Shown here one piece after another: positions 7,830-26,024 of a stretch of DNA of 64,000 bases. The notes below the pieces were generated by a model that saw only the letters and a program-made list of their open reading frames with translations, made no database searches and was not told the origin of the DNA. Location of the stretch: contig SUWG01000003.1 in the NCBI GenBank assembly GCA_015061625.1, positions 108,489 to 172,488 of the forward strand, read 5' to 3'. How positions within the stretch are numbered: the stretch's first letter is position 1; every line of letters starts with the position of its first letter. Position numbers and translations under genes: made by a program. This DNA is from Lentisphaerota bacterium. Lineage in GTDB: Bacteria; Verrucomicrobiota; Lentisphaeria; Victivallales; Victivallaceae.

Positions 7830-8924
7830 ATGAAATTTACGGTAGACCGGCTGAAATTGCAGAAAGCGTTGCAAAAAGTAAGCAATATCATTGGTTCACG
7901 TTCCATGCTTCCGTTGCTGGGCAATGTGTTGATCAAAGCCACGGAAGAGGGTTTGGAGTTGAGTACCACCGATCTGGAACTGCGTCTGGTGACCACGGTC
8001 GAAGCGGAAGTCAGCGAAGTCGGCACGACCACTTTGCCGGCGAAAAAACTTGCTTCACTGATCGGCAGTTTTTCGGCGGAAAAGGTGGATTTTGTCATCG
8101 ACGACAAAGATTTTGCCCGGATCACCTGCGGCACGGCGAAATTTACATTGCTGGGTCTTTCAGCGGCGGATTTCCCCGAAGCACTGGCATTTGAAGCGGT
8201 GCATACGATCAAGATCAAAGAGAGTCTTTTCAAACGGATGATCGGTTCGATCGCCTATGCGGTCAGCGTGGATGATTCCCGCAAAGTGCTGACCGGTGTG
8301 CTGTTGAGTTTGCGTGAAACCGCCATGACGCTGGTGGCGACCGACGGTAAACGTATGGCGATGCAGGAATCCAGTCCGGAAAGCATCATCGGCGGCGACG
8401 GCGATGCGATCATTCCTCTGAAAGCGATGTCCGAGATCCGCCGTCAGCTTGATGGCGACGAATTGCTGACCATCGAAGTCGGCGAAAAACTTTGCCGTTT
8501 CACCTGCGCCGGAGTGACCCTGACCAGCAAATTGATCGAGGGAGCCTATCCCAACTACCGTCAGGTGGTGCCGGGTAAATTTGCCAGCGAAGTGGAATTG
8601 CCGGTTCAGGCGTTGCTGGCGAAAATCGAAACGGTGGCGTTGATGATCGCCGGCGCGAATAGTTCCATTATTCTGCGTTTTGCCGACAATCAGCTGCAGT
8701 TGCAGGCCTCCAGTGCGGAAGTCGGCGAAGGCAGCGACCTTTTGGAAACCACCTTTGAGGGCGAAACGTTTGAAGTTTCCTTCAATCCGGTGTTTCTGGC
8801 CGATCCGTTGCGCAACACTGATGCGGATATGGTGAGATTCAAATTGAATGATCCTTTGAGTCCGGTGGCGATCGAAGCCGGTGAGGGATTCATCTATATC
8901 ATCATGCCGATCCGCAAAAAGTAA
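7830..8924 (+). CDS. dnaN: DNA polymerase III subunit beta (sliding clamp)
   Basis: 364 aa; MKFTVDRLKLQKALQKVSNIIGSRSMLPLLGNVLI..., C-term YIIMPIRKK. Confidence 0.95.
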   Translation: MKFTVDRLKLQKALQKVSNIIGSRSMLPLLGNVLIKATEEGLELSTTDLELRLVTTVEAEVSEVGTTTLPAKKLASLIGSFSAEKVDFVIDDKDFARITCGTAKFTLLGLSAADFPEALAFEAVHTIKIKESLFKRMIGSIAYAVSVDDSRKVLTGVLLSLRETAMTLVATDGKRMAMQESSPESIIGGDGDAIIPLKAMSEIRRQLDGDELLTIEVGEKLCRFTCAGVTLTSKLIEGAYPNYRQVVPGKFASEVELPVQALLAKIETVALMIAGANSSIILRFADNQLQLQASSAEVGEGSDLLETTFEGETFEVSFNPVFLADPLRNTDADMVRFKLNDPLSPVAIEAGEGFIYIIMPIRKK

Positions 8925-8926
8925 AA

Positions 8927-9967
8927 GTGGTTATCCGATCCATAGCATTGACCAATTTCCGCAACTTTGAGTCGCGGGAATTGGTTTTTTGCAATCGCAA
9001 CATATTTTTTGAAGGGCCCAATGGTTCCGGCAAGAGCAATTTGCTGGAAAGTATCGGGTTTGCCAGTTTGTTGCGTTCATTCCGTGGTGCGCCGCCGCGG
9101 GAAATGATCCGGATCGGGGCGCGGGAATTTCAAATCAGAATGGCGTTGCAGGGGCGTATCGCCCCGGAAATTCTGGAGATCAGTGAAAACGTTTCCGGCA
9201 ATCGCAAACTGGCGATCAATGGTTCGCCGGTTCGCCGGAGCAGTGATTTCATCCGGGAGTTTCACACGGTGGTTTTTGCTCCGGAAGACCGGGAGATCGT
9301 ATCCGGGCCGTCGGGGAACCGCCGGAGATTTTTTGACATACTTATTTCGGAGATCGAGCCGGAATATCTTTTGCGCTTGTCCCGGTATATCCGGGCGTTG
9401 CTCCAACGCAACCGGGCATTGAAATTTGCGCCGCATACTGCCGGGGCATTTGAGGATGAGTTAGCGGAAAATGCGCCATTTATTGCCGCCAAACGGCGGT
9501 TTTACGCTCAAAAAATTGCGGAAAAAGTGGCTTTACTGCTGGGGGATAGAGGCGGCTTTGAGGTGATATACCGCACTGATGCCGGGGAAGATTTCCGGAT
9601 GCACAAGGCATTGATCCGGGCGAAAAAGGAGAGCGAATTGCGCCGCCAATGCACCGCTTGCGGAGTGCAGTTGGATGATTTTGAATTTATTTTCAACGGC
9701 AAACTTTTGCGCACTTACGGCTCGACCGGACAGGTGAGATTGATCGCATTGCTGCTGAAACTGGCGCAATTTCAGGTGGTTCAGAGTAATTCCGATGCGC
9801 CGCTGGCGGTACTGGCCGACGATGTTACCGGCGAATTGGATGAAAATAATCTGTCACTTTTCCTCGATACCATTGCCGAAGCCGGGCAGTCATTTTTCAC
9901 CTTTGCCGAACCGCCCCGCTTCTCATTGCCCGACAGTGCGACCATACCTGTTGGAAATAATGGCTGA
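8927..9967 (+). CDS. recF: DNA replication/repair protein RecF (GTG start)
   Basis: LTNFRNFESRELVF, Walker A GPNGSGKSNLLESI, 2 bp after dnaN. Confidence 0.9.
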   Translation: MVIRSIALTNFRNFESRELVFCNRNIFFEGPNGSGKSNLLESIGFASLLRSFRGAPPREMIRIGAREFQIRMALQGRIAPEILEISENVSGNRKLAINGSPVRRSSDFIREFHTVVFAPEDREIVSGPSGNRRRFFDILISEIEPEYLLRLSRYIRALLQRNRALKFAPHTAGAFEDELAENAPFIAAKRRFYAQKIAEKVALLLGDRGGFEVIYRTDAGEDFRMHKALIRAKKESELRRQCTACGVQLDDFEFIFNGKLLRTYGSTGQVRLIALLLKLAQFQVVQSNSDAPLAVLADDVTGELDENNLSLFLDTIAEAGQSFFTFAEPPRFSLPDSATIPVGNNG

Positions 9968-9974
9968 AGATAAT

Positions 9975-10877
9975 TCAGAATGGTGACGGCGGAGTATAAC
10001 TTTTCCTTAATAAATGACCGCCATACGGCGCTGATGAGATGTCGTTACAAAACATTATTGTCCAATTGGCAATTTCTTCTTCAGTAAAATTATATCTCAA
10101 AGCCATTTCCCGGAGTTCTTTCAAGCGGCCGCGGACTGCCAAAAAGGCGGCAAGTTCAACAAATTTACGTTCTCTTATCTGTTGCCAATCCGTGCTTTGA
10201 GGGGGAGTATCGCTAAATATTTTTTCACCAGATAGATTGGAATAATGTATTTCCTTCTCCCAGCCGGTGGTGTCGAAGCCCATGGTGACATTCAGATACA
10301 CCGCGCCAACCGCACCGGCGTAATATATTTCGTCGGTCCATTTGAACCACAAACCCTTTTGCGGGTGACGGCAGCCGCAAATATTATTAGTGGGGTCAAA
10401 AAGTCCAATCGCACTGAATGAAACGACTTCTCTCCAGCAATTGCCGGAAATATCAAAAATCGTGGTTTGGGTGTATCCGGCATCTGCTCCTGAACCGAAA
10501 TTGTGAGCGGAAACTATCAGGTAGCGGCAAAGACCACTGTTATCGGCAGCGCATAAGAGGGAATCAATATCAAGAACTTCATCTTCCGGATTGGGATCAC
10601 CGGGAACAAATGGATCAGATTGGGCAGCGCGGATCCATTCACATTTATTTATGCCATGACTGATTTTACTGAAATAAATGTATCGCCCTTCGGTAGAAAA
10701 AAGAATAGTATTACCTTTTTTGATTTGTACTGTTGCATTATATCCGTATGATACATACACCCGTATTTTTTCGCTGTCACCGGCAGTGGGTGCTGTTTGC
10801 GGCTCGTTTTCTGCCGCAAAGGCGACTGTAACGGCGGCAAAGACCGCGGTAAAAATTGAAGTGAAAATCTTTCTCAT
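9975..10877 (-). CDS. Hypothetical secreted protein
   Basis: 300 aa with N-terminal signal peptide MRKIFTSIFTAVFAAVTVAFAAE; RBS-like ggaagt upstream. Confidence 0.6.
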   Translation of the reverse strand: MRKIFTSIFTAVFAAVTVAFAAENEPQTAPTAGDSEKIRVYVSYGYNATVQIKKGNTILFSTEGRYIYFSKISHGINKCEWIRAAQSDPFVPGDPNPEDEVLDIDSLLCAADNSGLCRYLIVSAHNFGSGADAGYTQTTIFDISGNCWREVVSFSAIGLFDPTNNICGCRHPQKGLWFKWTDEIYYAGAVGAVYLNVTMGFDTTGWEKEIHYSNLSGEKIFSDTPPQSTDWQQIRERKFVELAAFLAVRGRLKELREMALRYNFTEEEIANWTIMFCNDISSAPYGGHLLRKSYTPPSPF

Positions 10878-10949
10878 TTTTTGTACTTCCTTTTTTTTAT
10901 TCTCTTAAACTGCATTTTTACCATCTGCCATGTAATATATCACTGATGA

Positions 10950-10969
10950 TTGGACATTTTCAGTCCATG
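10950..10969 (-). promoter_or_regulatory. Palindromic promoter-like element copy 1 (upstream of 9975..10877)
   Basis: Minus strand CATGGACTGAAAATGTCCAA-N10-TATATTA; same architecture as copies at 22966 and 24543. Confidence 0.55.
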
Positions 10970-22620: not shown

Positions 22621-22742
22621 TATAAACGCTCCACAGGGTGATTAACGGCAACAATATGTGGCTTGTTTACGCTTGATATCCCACCCCTTCGTCCCCTTGC
22701 AAAAATTTTAAAAAAATAAAATTTGCATCTTGACAAATGCTT

Positions 22743-22907
22743 TTATCCGCACAGGGCGATGCCGATGGTCAATATGCGTTGGGATTGTGTTATGAAAAGG
22801 GGGTGGGCGTCACCAAAGATCAAACCGAGGCCGTTAAATATTATCGTTTGTCTGCTGCTCAAGGATTTCAGTTGGCAGTTGATGCATTGAGGCGATTGGG
22901 GCTGTAA
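22743..22907 (+). pseudogene. C-terminal fragment of a Sel1-repeat protein gene
   Basis: Frame LSAQGDADGQYALGLCYEKGVGVTKDQTEAVKYYRLSAAQGFQLAVDALRRLGL* mirrors the C-terminus of 23042..24484; no start codon or upstream repeats. Confidence 0.8.
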
Positions 22908-23017
22908 AAGCGTGTCTGGGACATTGATGAAACAACATTGAAAAATTGTTAATAACTTTTTGTTGCTTGGACTAAAAATGTCCAAGTGTCGGTGTTATAT
23001 TATCGGCCTGTCAATTC
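22878..23017. repeat. Long direct repeat, copy 1
   Basis: 22878..22994 is identical to 24455..24571 (offset 1577 bp); similarity continues about 20 bp further. Confidence 0.92.
22966..22986 (+). promoter_or_regulatory. Palindromic promoter-like element copy 2 (upstream of the Sel1 gene)
   Basis: CTTGGAC-TAAAAAT-GTCCAAG, then 10 nt after GTCCAA to TATATTAT. Confidence 0.65.
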
Positions 23018-23041
23018 TAAAACGGGGAAAGGAAACATTTA

Positions 23042-24484
23042 ATGGCGGGAAAAGTTTTTTGGTCGGTTGCGGTAGTGGTGATGGTTCAATTTTTCCTTTA
23101 TGCTCAAGCAGATATTGCTGTTTTGCGTACTGCCGCAGAAAACGGCGATGTCAATGCTCAAAACGAGTTGGGATTATGTTATTATAGAGGAAACGGAGTT
23201 GAACAGGATCACGCCGAAGCCTTCCGGCTTTTCCGCCTTTCTGCCGAAAAAGGCAATGCCGAAGGTCAATGTTGGCTTGGAGTGTGTTACTATAAAGGTC
23301 ATGGTGTGGAACAGAATTACGCCGAAGCCGTTCGTTACATTCGCCTTTCTGCCGAACAGGGCAACGCCGATGGTCAGGTTAGGCTTGGAGTGTGTTACTA
23401 TAAAGGTCATGGTGTGGAACAGAATTACGCCGAAGCAGTAAAATACTTCCGTCTCTCTGCCGATCAAGGCAATGCTCTTGGTCAATGTTGGCTTGGAGTG
23501 TGTTACTATAATGGACATGGCGTGGAACAGGATTATGCCGAAGCCGTCCGATTGGTCTGTTTGGCTGTCGAACAGGGCAATTCCAATGGGCAGGTTTGTC
23601 TTGGGGTATGTTATTTCGAAGGCAAAGGCGTGGAACAGAATTACGCCGAAGCCTTCCGTTTGTTCTATTTGGCTACCGATCAGGGGGATGCTGAAGGTCA
23701 GGTTTGGCTTGGAGTGTGTTACTATTATGGTTGTGGCGTGGAACAGTATTATGCCGAAGCCTTCCGTTTGTTCCGTCTCTCTGCCGATCAAGGCAATGCT
23801 TTTGGGCAAACTTTGCTTGGTCGTTGTTATTTTGAAGGCAAAGGCGTAGAACCAAATTATACCGAAGCTGTTCGTTTATTTCGCCTTGCTGCCGATCAGG
23901 GGGATGCTGAAGGTCAGATTTTGCTTGGATGGTGTTACTATAATGGTCATGGCGTGGAACGAAATTACACTGAAGCCGTCCGATGGTTCCGTCTCCTTGC
24001 CGATCAGGGCAATGCTCTTGGGCAAACTTGGCTTGGCCGCTGTTATTTTGAAGGCAAAGGCGTGGAACGAAATTACGCCGAAGCTGTTCGTTTATTTCGC
24101 CTTGCTGCCGATCAGGGGGATGCTGAAGGTCAGATTTTGCTTGGATGGTGTTACTATAATGGTCATGGCGTGGAACGAAATTACACTGAAGCCGTCCGAT
24201 GGTTCCGTCTCCTTGCCGATCAGGGCAATGCTCTTGGTCAATGTTGGCTTGGAGTGTGTTACTATAATGGACATGGTGTGGAACAGGATTATGCCGAAGC
24301 CGTGAAGTATTTTCGCCTCTCTGCCTATCAGGGGGATGCCGAAAGTCAATATTTGCTTGGACTTTGTTATGAAAAGGGGTTGGGAGTCACCAAAAATCAA
24401 AACGAAGCCGTTAGATATTATCGCCTTGCAGCAGTTCAAAATTTTCAAAATGCGGTTGATGCATTGAGGCGATTGGGGCTGTAA
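23042..24484 (+). CDS. Secreted Sel1-repeat (TPR-like) protein
   Basis: 480 aa; signal peptide; about 12 tandem 36-aa units of type AEAVRLFRLAADQGDAEGQxLLGxCYYxGxGVExNY. Confidence 0.9.
   Translation: MAGKVFWSVAVVVMVQFFLYAQADIAVLRTAAENGDVNAQNELGLCYYRGNGVEQDHAEAFRLFRLSAEKGNAEGQCWLGVCYYKGHGVEQNYAEAVRYIRLSAEQGNADGQVRLGVCYYKGHGVEQNYAEAVKYFRLSADQGNALGQCWLGVCYYNGHGVEQDYAEAVRLVCLAVEQGNSNGQVCLGVCYFEGKGVEQNYAEAFRLFYLATDQGDAEGQVWLGVCYYYGCGVEQYYAEAFRLFRLSADQGNAFGQTLLGRCYFEGKGVEPNYTEAVRLFRLAADQGDAEGQILLGWCYYNGHGVERNYTEAVRWFRLLADQGNALGQTWLGRCYFEGKGVERNYAEAVRLFRLAADQGDAEGQILLGWCYYNGHGVERNYTEAVRWFRLLADQGNALGQCWLGVCYYNGHGVEQDYAEAVKYFRLSAYQGDAESQYLLGLCYEKGLGVTKNQNEAVRYYRLAAVQNFQNAVDALRRLGL
23150..24470 (+). 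repeat. 108-bp tandem coding repeat array with a 216-bp higher-order duplication
   Basis: Period 108 bp (36 aa); 23862..24021 and 24078..24237 are identical over 160 bp. Confidence 0.9.
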
Positions 24485-24594
24485 AAGCGTGTCTGGGACA
24501 TTGATGAAACAACATTGAAAAATTGTTAATAACTTTTTGTTGCTTGGACTAAAAATGTCCAAGTGTCGGTGCTATATTATCGGCCTGTCAACTC
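24455..24594. repeat. Long direct repeat, copy 2
   Basis: See 22878..23017. Confidence 0.92.
24543..24563 (+). promoter_or_regulatory. Palindromic promoter-like element copy 3
   Basis: CTTGGACTAAAAATGTCCAAG with 10 nt after GTCCAA to TATATTAT. Confidence 0.6.
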
Positions 24595-24773
24595 TAACAC
24601 AGGAAAGGATTATTCCCTCCGGGAATGTGTTATTTGATGGGCATCGGCCGCAATGAAAGGCAATGATAATGCGGCACGGTCCTTGTTGATTTTGGGAGAT
24701 TAAGAGTTTGAAACAACTGCACTCAAGGTGGGGGCAGAAAAAATAATTTTATAAACAGAAAGGAAAAGACGAA

Positions 24774-26024
24774 ATGGCGGAAAGTGAACAAAATCAAAAT
24801 CTGAACAATGAAGAAAGCATCAATGAAAATCCAGTACTGCATCCGGAAAAAATTTATCCCGGTAATGTTTGTCCGGCATCACCCGAAAATATGAAGAAAA
24901 AACACGGTCTCAAGCCGGTGACCAAGACGGAAAAACTCATCGTCAAACTGGTGACGATCGCCGCTATTCTTGCTGCATTGCATATACCTTTGCATATGGT
25001 CAAATATCAAAATAGAGAGAGAGCCGGAAGATTGAGAGGGGTTCAGAGTGAGATCGCCGCCTCCTGGGGCGGTGAGCAGACCGTCTCGTTTAATGTCGTT
25101 CCGCAGAATTTGACCATCGAGGCTGATGTCACTTCCGAAATCCGCTCCCGCGGTATCTATCAGGTGCCGGTTTACTCTGCGGCGATTAAGATGGATATGC
25201 AATTTGCCGAAGGGGTGACTGAAGTAAAAATCTACATCTCCGATGATATCGGTTTGCGCAGTGCCACCGCCGAAGTCGATGGTCATCCGGTCGAGTGTAA
25301 ATCCGGTACAAAATATATCCTTATTGCAGATAATGGGCGGGAAATCAGTTCATGCCGGATCAGTCTGCAGTTGCGCGGCAGCGGCAAACTGTTGTTTGAA
25401 ACCAACAGATGTAACAGCAAAATAAAAATTCGCGGCAATTGCAGCGATCCCGGTTTTATCGGCACTACATTGCCCGATTCCCGCTCCGTCGAAGAAGACG
25501 GGTTTTCCGCCACCTGGAATTTGAGCAATGTGGCAAACCAGCATCAGATCGGAGTCAACTTCCTGGTCGCCGCCAGCAACTATCAGCGGGTGGAAAGAAC
25601 GATGACTTATGCCACATTTTTCCTGATCGTCTTTTTCATTACCATCTTTGTCGGGGAAATGCTGACCTCCTGGCAGATCCATCCTCTGCAGTATGCTGTT
25701 GCCGCCGGTGGTCCGGTGCTTTTCTATCTTATGCTGCTGGCTCTTTCTGAACACATCAATTTTGCGGCTTCTTATTTTATCAGTGCGGCGATGATCGTGC
25801 TGATGGTGACTGCCTATGCTAAAATGTTCATGAGAAGATATGTTCCGGCCTTGATCATGGGAGGGGTTTTCATTGCCAGTTATGTGGTCAACTACATTGT
25901 CCTGCAGTTGGAAGATTTCGCCTTGCTCGCCGGAACTCTGGTGCTGGCGGTGATCCTCGGCGCATTGATGCTGATCACCGGTAAGGTCAATCAGCAGGAG
26001 TCTGAAAAGAAAGATAACGCCTGA
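24774..26024 (+). CDS. CreD-like inner membrane protein
   Basis: 416 aa; SWGGEQTVSFNVVP...RSRGIYQVPVYSAAIKMDMQF plus C-terminal TM bundle. Confidence 0.65.
   Translation: MAESEQNQNLNNEESINENPVLHPEKIYPGNVCPASPENMKKKHGLKPVTKTEKLIVKLVTIAAILAALHIPLHMVKYQNRERAGRLRGVQSEIAASWGGEQTVSFNVVPQNLTIEADVTSEIRSRGIYQVPVYSAAIKMDMQFAEGVTEVKIYISDDIGLRSATAEVDGHPVECKSGTKYILIADNGREISSCRISLQLRGSGKLLFETNRCNSKIKIRGNCSDPGFIGTTLPDSRSVEEDGFSATWNLSNVANQHQIGVNFLVAASNYQRVERTMTYATFFLIVFFITIFVGEMLTSWQIHPLQYAVAAGGPVLFYLMLLALSEHINFAASYFISAAMIVLMVTAYAKMFMRRYVPALIMGGVFIASYVVNYIVLQLEDFALLAGTLVLAVILGALMLITGKVNQQESEKKDNA

Follow-up and report, generated by a model that had tools for sequence, protein, structure and literature searches.

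The window analysed here, a stretch of 64,000 nucleotides (contig C10:108489-172488 of the Lentisphaerota genome G000, which comprises 2,705,441 bases in 44 contigs), carries three copies of a composite element in which the minimal dyad GGAC-N7-GTCC is followed, at each site, by exactly 12 nt and then by TATATT. An earlier note on this DNA had placed a palindromic promoter-like element at three sites, and all three sequences are present at the positions it gave. The features are as follows.

10952..10966, minus strand: dyad of site 1, GGACTGAAAATGTCC, within CATGGACTGAAAATGTCCAA (pattern search)
10934..10939, minus strand: -10 element of site 1, TATATT, 12 nt past the dyad and preceded by TGA (extended -10)
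9975..10877, minus strand: target of site 1, a 300-aa predicted secreted protein without a Pfam family; ATG 56 nt past the -10 element
22752..23033, plus strand: duplicated segment with the 3' end of a Sel1 gene and a promoter (second copy 24329-24609)
22969..22983, plus strand: dyad of site 2, GGACTAAAAATGTCC, within CTTGGACTAAAAATGTCCAAG (22966-22986; pattern search)
22996..23001, plus strand: -10 element of site 2, TATATT, 12 nt past the dyad and preceded by TGT (extended -10)
23042..24484, plus strand: target of site 2, a 480-aa Sel1-repeat protein (PF08238, 1.5e-118); ATG 40 nt past the -10 element
24546..24560, plus strand: dyad of site 3, GGACTAAAAATGTCC, the duplicate of site 2
24573..24578, plus strand: -10 element of site 3, TATATT, 12 nt past the dyad
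24774..26024, plus strand: probable target of site 3, a 416-aa CreD inner-membrane protein (PF06123, 1.2e-72), 195 nt past the -10 element

The copies at 22966 and 24543 share the duplicated segment (22752-23033 and 24329-24609), as the earlier note had recognized, and the copy at 10950 is independent of the duplication, as are five further copies elsewhere in the genome. The proposal that the fixed spacing exceeds chance holds as well, given that the composite pattern matches three times in the window against 0.00 times in shuffled sequence. The original observation is thus correct, and stronger than its own wording. Two features of the surroundings may be added. Positions 22734-22907 of the window hold a 57-codon 3' Sel1 remnant whose 3' end and promoter are the same as those of the intact Sel1 gene, which suggests, from the sequence, past recombination between tandem copies of Sel1 that each had a site of their own. 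The target of site 1 lies directly behind dnaN- and recF-like genes (window 7830-10877; translations read by eye) and is convergent with recF.

Genome-wide, GGACNNAAAANGTCC-N12-TATATT has exactly eight perfect matches, three of them in the window and five at C8:47962(-), C20:95624(-), C35:89355(+) and the divergent pair C43:10434(-)/10831(+). GGACnnAAAAnGTCC-N12-TATATT has no genome match with one or two mismatches, and at three mismatches there is background only (six matches in the whole genome, five for the reversed control). An ATG follows 28-64 nt past the -10 element at seven of the eight sites, the exception being 24546, where CreD is 195 nt away. With up to one mismatch allowed, about 90 sites turn up in 35 of 100 relatives, and the reversed control gives none. 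The earlier note had named a lack of further intergenic copies as grounds for its refutation; the scan instead yielded more copies, both in this genome (five) and in its relatives. When 85,462 species genomes of bacteria and archaea were scanned for exact matches, 52 stretches came back, the majority from records that bear the names Lentisphaerae, Lentisphaeria, Victivallis or Victivallales; several of the remaining stretches begin within ClpB-like coding sequence and look like chance. Judged by its distribution, the composite is a phylum-wide class of predicted promoters. Some sites occur in divergent pairs, about 60-90 bp apart in G087 (L133, C347:16740/16804; L112, C589:422/486; C189:29527/29613) and about 360 bp apart on C43 of G000 (L043); the two sites of each pair would fire in opposite directions, and one pair adjoins HIRAN and ARPP-1 genes.

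The consensus of 108 distinct Lentisphaerota sites, chosen at no more than one mismatch, reads GGAC(A/g/t)(C/t)AAAATGTCC-N12-TATATT. When spacers of 2-26 nt were allowed, the gap between dyad and -10 element was 12 nt in 47 of 55 dyads, 11 nt in three and 13 nt in two. The -10 element is TATATT or TATAAT, with G at -14 in 57 of the 108 sites and TG in 41. Conservation is limited to the dyad and the -10 element, and flanks and downstream genes vary among sites. No -35 box was found, the best match to TTGACA at spacings of 15-19 being not better than in random sequence and in fact worse; the dyad therefore appears to take the place of the -35 box, which is how a promoter is built when it depends on an activator bound at -35.

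The genes that follow the sites are diverse. In G000 they include a type I-C operon (cas3, cas5, a probable cas8 and cas7) whose ATG lies 28 nt past the -10 element, and beside which an examination of 3 kb revealed no CRISPR array, a 154-aa protein with no family assignment, and proteins of 51 and 60 aa with predicted membrane stretches. In relatives, sites precede the CRISPR effectors Cas12a (L083, L092), Cas12b (L143) and type I-C Cas3 (L047), as well as Hachiman HmaA (L160), a DruE-like helicase (L121), an IetA-like ATPase (L085) and type I methylases (HsdM; L149, L152, L153). HIRAN proteins account for seven of 60 downstream proteins; RmuC, an FtsK-like protein, ankyrin and Sel1 proteins are also found downstream, CreD genes directly follow a site in two relatives (L168, L172), and some sites precede WYL genes themselves (L057, L087). 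At E<1e-30, and with flanking genes from the same loci as controls, CRISPR effectors number five among the 60 downstream proteins and none among 60 controls, and defence matches in total about 11 against at most five; since the enrichment is clear for CRISPR effectors only, we claim no strong overall statistic. The idea of a regulon of secreted accessory proteins, put forward in the earlier note, is too narrow for a set that across the phylum takes in anti-phage effectors (Cas3 of type I-C, Cas12a, Cas12b, Hachiman, Druantia-like, type I methylase), DNA-repair-type proteins (HIRAN, RmuC), small membrane proteins, and CreD, Sel1 and ankyrin proteins.

The controller of these sites is, on the sequence evidence, very probably a WYL-domain protein. 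G000 has a single WYL-domain gene (PF13280, 3.6e-19), which lies outside the window (C8:48043-49017, 325 aa) and runs divergently from the C8 site, with 49 bp between its start and the outer edge of that site, an adjacency with a chance probability of about 0.002. Sites are present in all 14 relatives whose orthologue is at least 65% identical and in 21 of the 86 others (p=5e-8); within the genus, the counts are 12 of 12 orthologue carriers against five of 22 others (p=1e-5). Searched in the form NGACn-N5-nG(T/G)CN-N11/12-TA(T/C)AnT, the composite lies at most 300 bp upstream of 38 of 90 WYL genes, where shuffles expect 0.04, and in 32 of the 38 its -10 element points away from the WYL gene, giving a divergent layout. 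Five genomes have sites and no WYL match (G010, G013, G017, G080, G089), perhaps because their assemblies are incomplete. Among the 14 close orthologues, four have no site in the 600 bp upstream (L187, which starts at a contig end, L192, L193 and L196), and their genomes carry sites elsewhere. In the viral contigs searched, neither an exact copy of the composite nor a relative of the WYL protein was found.

Profile searches match the WYL protein to PafBC (4e-15), BrxR (9e-10), CapW (1e-8) and DriD (3.5e-5), the alignment spanning the WYL and WCX domains for PafBC and DriD and WYL alone for BrxR and CapW. An orthologue modelled with AlphaFold (pLDDT 80, pTM 0.47) has a wHTH, a three-helix bundle, WYL and WCX in one chain, the placement of the domains being uncertain at this pTM; Foldseek with the model returns PafBC (1.9e-13) and DriD (1.5e-11), and the BrxR and CapW structures also match. 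Residues W197, Y198, K200 and R216 are invariant in the eight sequences compared. With respect to R211 and R214 of PafB, only the second aligns with an Arg in the WYL protein, according to our reading of the alignment.

Beside nearly half of the 38 WYL genes the dyad has the variant form TGACA-N5-TG(T/G)CA, and the variation is matched within the protein: residue 49, which falls in the predicted recognition helix of the wHTH (helix 48-60), is Lys in 23 of 23 WYL proteins of the GGACA type and Arg in 20 of 20 of the TGACA type. In a tree built without that region, residue 49 and dyad type switch together twice and never apart; with just two independent events, both concordant, the switches are too few for significance. 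Of the 100 genomes, 20 carry TGACA sites and 19 of these have an Arg-type WYL gene (p=3e-12), and GGACA sites track Lys-type genes (p=2e-6), both values ignoring kinship and counting WYL-adjacent sites; neither class tracks the opposite WYL type among the 100 relatives. G000 has a Lys-type WYL gene alone, and a search for TGACA sites in it found none. The sites that accompany Arg49-type genes (L243, L247, L248, L250, L252, L256, L257 and others) form a second putative promoter class, TGACA-N5-TG(T/G)CA-N11/12-TAYATT. Genes divergent from Arg49-type WYL genes encode, among others, ATPase-like proteins with a GxxGxGKT loop (L224, L228), an HsdM-like protein (L245, with an AGACA dyad) and small membrane peptides.

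WYL activators known in detail are DriD of Caulobacter and PafBC and SiwR of mycobacteria. DriD of Caulobacter crescentus is an ssDNA-activated WYL activator of an SOS-independent DNA-damage response, its probe ATACGACAGTAACTGTCGTAT contains CGACA-N5-TGTCG, its sites lie across -35 at an unvarying distance from -10 with a conserved G-14, and the driD promoter works in both directions, with DriD activating the operon transcribed away from driD (PMC12340889); its target DidA is a division inhibitor (PMC4211646). The Lentisphaerota sites have in common with those of DriD the core GACA-N5-TGTC, the position over -35 and G-14, and the two regulators have in common the domain order, their length (327 and 325 aa) and a gene divergent from a site; small membrane proteins are among the targets in both. 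The systems differ in the outer base of the dyad (C for DriD, G in Lentisphaerota) and in the distance to -10 (11 nt from TGnCG in our own alignment of the DriD promoter oligos, against 12 nt), the proteins are only about 16% identical over the fold, and, unlike DriD, the Lentisphaerota system has CRISPR effectors and other defence systems among its targets as well as Lys and Arg site classes. In mycobacteria, the RecA-independent promoters of PafBC follow tTGTCRgtg-8 nt-TAnnnT (PMC5656591), a gap of 11 nt when counted as for the DriD oligos. PafBC is the best profile and fold match, and both systems have a TGTC block near -10 and no -35 box; however, PafBC is a heterodimer with one half-site, whereas Lentisphaerota would have one protein and a full dyad. 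The traits of the DriD/PafB type, a dyad over -35 at a constant distance from -10 with no usable -35 box, are seen here.

Considering these likenesses, we think it likely that a DriD-like WYL activator works through this class of promoter and governs a dispersed regulon of phage-defence, DNA-damage-type and envelope genes. The sequences themselves show that the sites form a class, how they are spaced and spread over the phylum, which genes lie downstream, that WYL genes adjoin them, and that residue and base covary. We infer that the protein binds the dyad, that it does so as a dimer, and that it activates rather than represses. In this scheme, a dimer of the 325-aa wHTH-3HB-WYL-WCX protein would bind GGACA-N5-TGTCC, replace the -35 box and recruit the housekeeping RNA polymerase, which would use the TATATT element, in many cases preceded by TG, that lies 12 nt past the dyad. 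The signal is probably ssDNA from damaged or phage-attacked DNA, held in the WYL groove, a suggestion that comes by analogy from the WYL family; the arginines essential in PafB are conserved here only in part. The response would comprise a 35-aa peptide encoded divergently from the regulator gene and, at other sites, CRISPR effectors (I-C in G000, Cas12a and Cas12b in relatives), further anti-phage systems, and repair-type, small membrane, CreD and Sel1 proteins.

The same WYL protein might instead sit at the dyad as a repressor of the CapW/BrxR type, freed by a phage-attack ligand in its WYL domain. BrxR and CapW are defence-linked WYL repressors of BREX and CBASS that bind inverted repeats (PMC9122588, PMC9122601), they match the WYL protein by profile and by fold, and several motif targets are defence genes, so that in both settings a WYL regulator and inverted repeats (with binding predicted here) occur near defence genes. 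The placement of the operator is nevertheless different: CapW palindromes sit across -10 and the repeat of BrxR is downstream of the predicted -10 (PMC9122588, PMC9122601), from where each represses a neighbouring operon, whereas the present dyad lies over -35, ends a near-constant 12 nt upstream of -10 and recurs at sites spread through the genome. Because the two repressors act from over or downstream of -10, we hold activation to be likelier. Moreover, a polymerase unaided would have no -35 box to use, the activator DriD shares core sequence and position with these sites, and the profile alignments reach into WCX for PafBC and DriD but not for BrxR and CapW. Taken together, these points make repression unlikely.

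Other readings dispense with the WYL protein. If a different dyad-binding regulator used the sites, WYL genes would be just some of its targets, and the WYL genes downstream of certain sites (L057, L087) and the site-bearing genomes lacking a WYL match would agree with this; the co-occurrence, the divergent adjacency in many genomes, the covariation of residue and base, and the near-identical target of DriD make it quite improbable. The earlier note had left the choice between an operator and a site for an alternative sigma factor or an activator; part of this is borne out, in that the element is dispersed and of the activator kind, its dyad taking the place of -35 at a fixed distance from -10. 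An alternative sigma factor is unneeded, a WYL-domain activator being the better candidate. Fixed spacing and a conserved two-block promoter could in themselves be the -35 and -10 elements of an ECF-type sigma factor, with an incidental palindrome. However, both arms of the upstream block are conserved and make up a near-perfect dyad, whose variants are symmetric (GGACA..TGTCC to TGACA..TGTCA) and covary with a residue of the WYL recognition helix, and the -10 element is plain TATATT/TATAAT, where an ECF promoter would have an asymmetric -35 element and a non-housekeeping -10; on dyad symmetry and the WYL evidence we reject this very improbable explanation. In favour of chance matches or a mobile repeat stands the duplication of window copies 2 and 3, but flanks and downstream genes differ among sites, conservation is confined to dyad and -10, and shuffled and reversed controls give zero; such an origin, which the phylum-wide scan contradicts, is hardly credible, and the mobile repeat was rejected.

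Returning to the proposed DriD-like activator, its dispersed set of DNA-damage-type genes under one regulator would resemble the LexA/SOS system, from which it differs in protein family and site. The LexA DNA-binding domain PF01726 was not found in G000 (91% complete), and a reading of the element as a LexA box was rejected on that account. Nor was PF01726 found in G004, G008, G012, G016, G020 and G021, six of the eight further carriers of the orthologue that were tested in the genus; within the genus it is present in two of nine carriers and 10 of 15 non-carriers (p=0.04), a pattern that, with incomplete assemblies, is a lead and not a result.

It is possible, though we would not yet call it probable, that Lentisphaerota have parallel DriD-type WYL regulons for damage or phage attack, with a code in which Lys49 specifies GGACA and Arg49 TGACA, that place CRISPR-Cas I-C, V-A and V-B, Hachiman, other defences and repair-type genes under one switch, and that in the G000 lineage replace a lost LexA. 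Within the literature collection searched, no paper dealt with WYL regulation in Lentisphaerota. Mechanisms of this kind are already known; what appears to be new is the phylum, the set of targets and the switch in specificity. If true, the proposal would link damage-type WYL activators with defence-linked WYL proteins through a dispersed regulon that includes CRISPR effectors, and the rule NGACA-N5-TGTCN, 11-12 nt, TATATT, together with the one-residue prediction of specificity, could be used to find WYL regulons elsewhere.

Finally, many species encode, in divergent orientation to the WYL gene, a recurring peptide some 35 aa long with the pattern MxKKIIALFxRP...KPYTPP...QLTLPF or YQPELPF. 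The G000 copy (L040, on C8) has its ATG 47 nt past the -10 element of C8:47962, and copies in relatives are found at L053, L068, L071, L088, L093, L119, L124, L164, L169, L171, L173 and L179. Its C-terminus appears similar in sequence to the sliding-clamp-binding motif of Hda, QLSLPL (PMC12309361).
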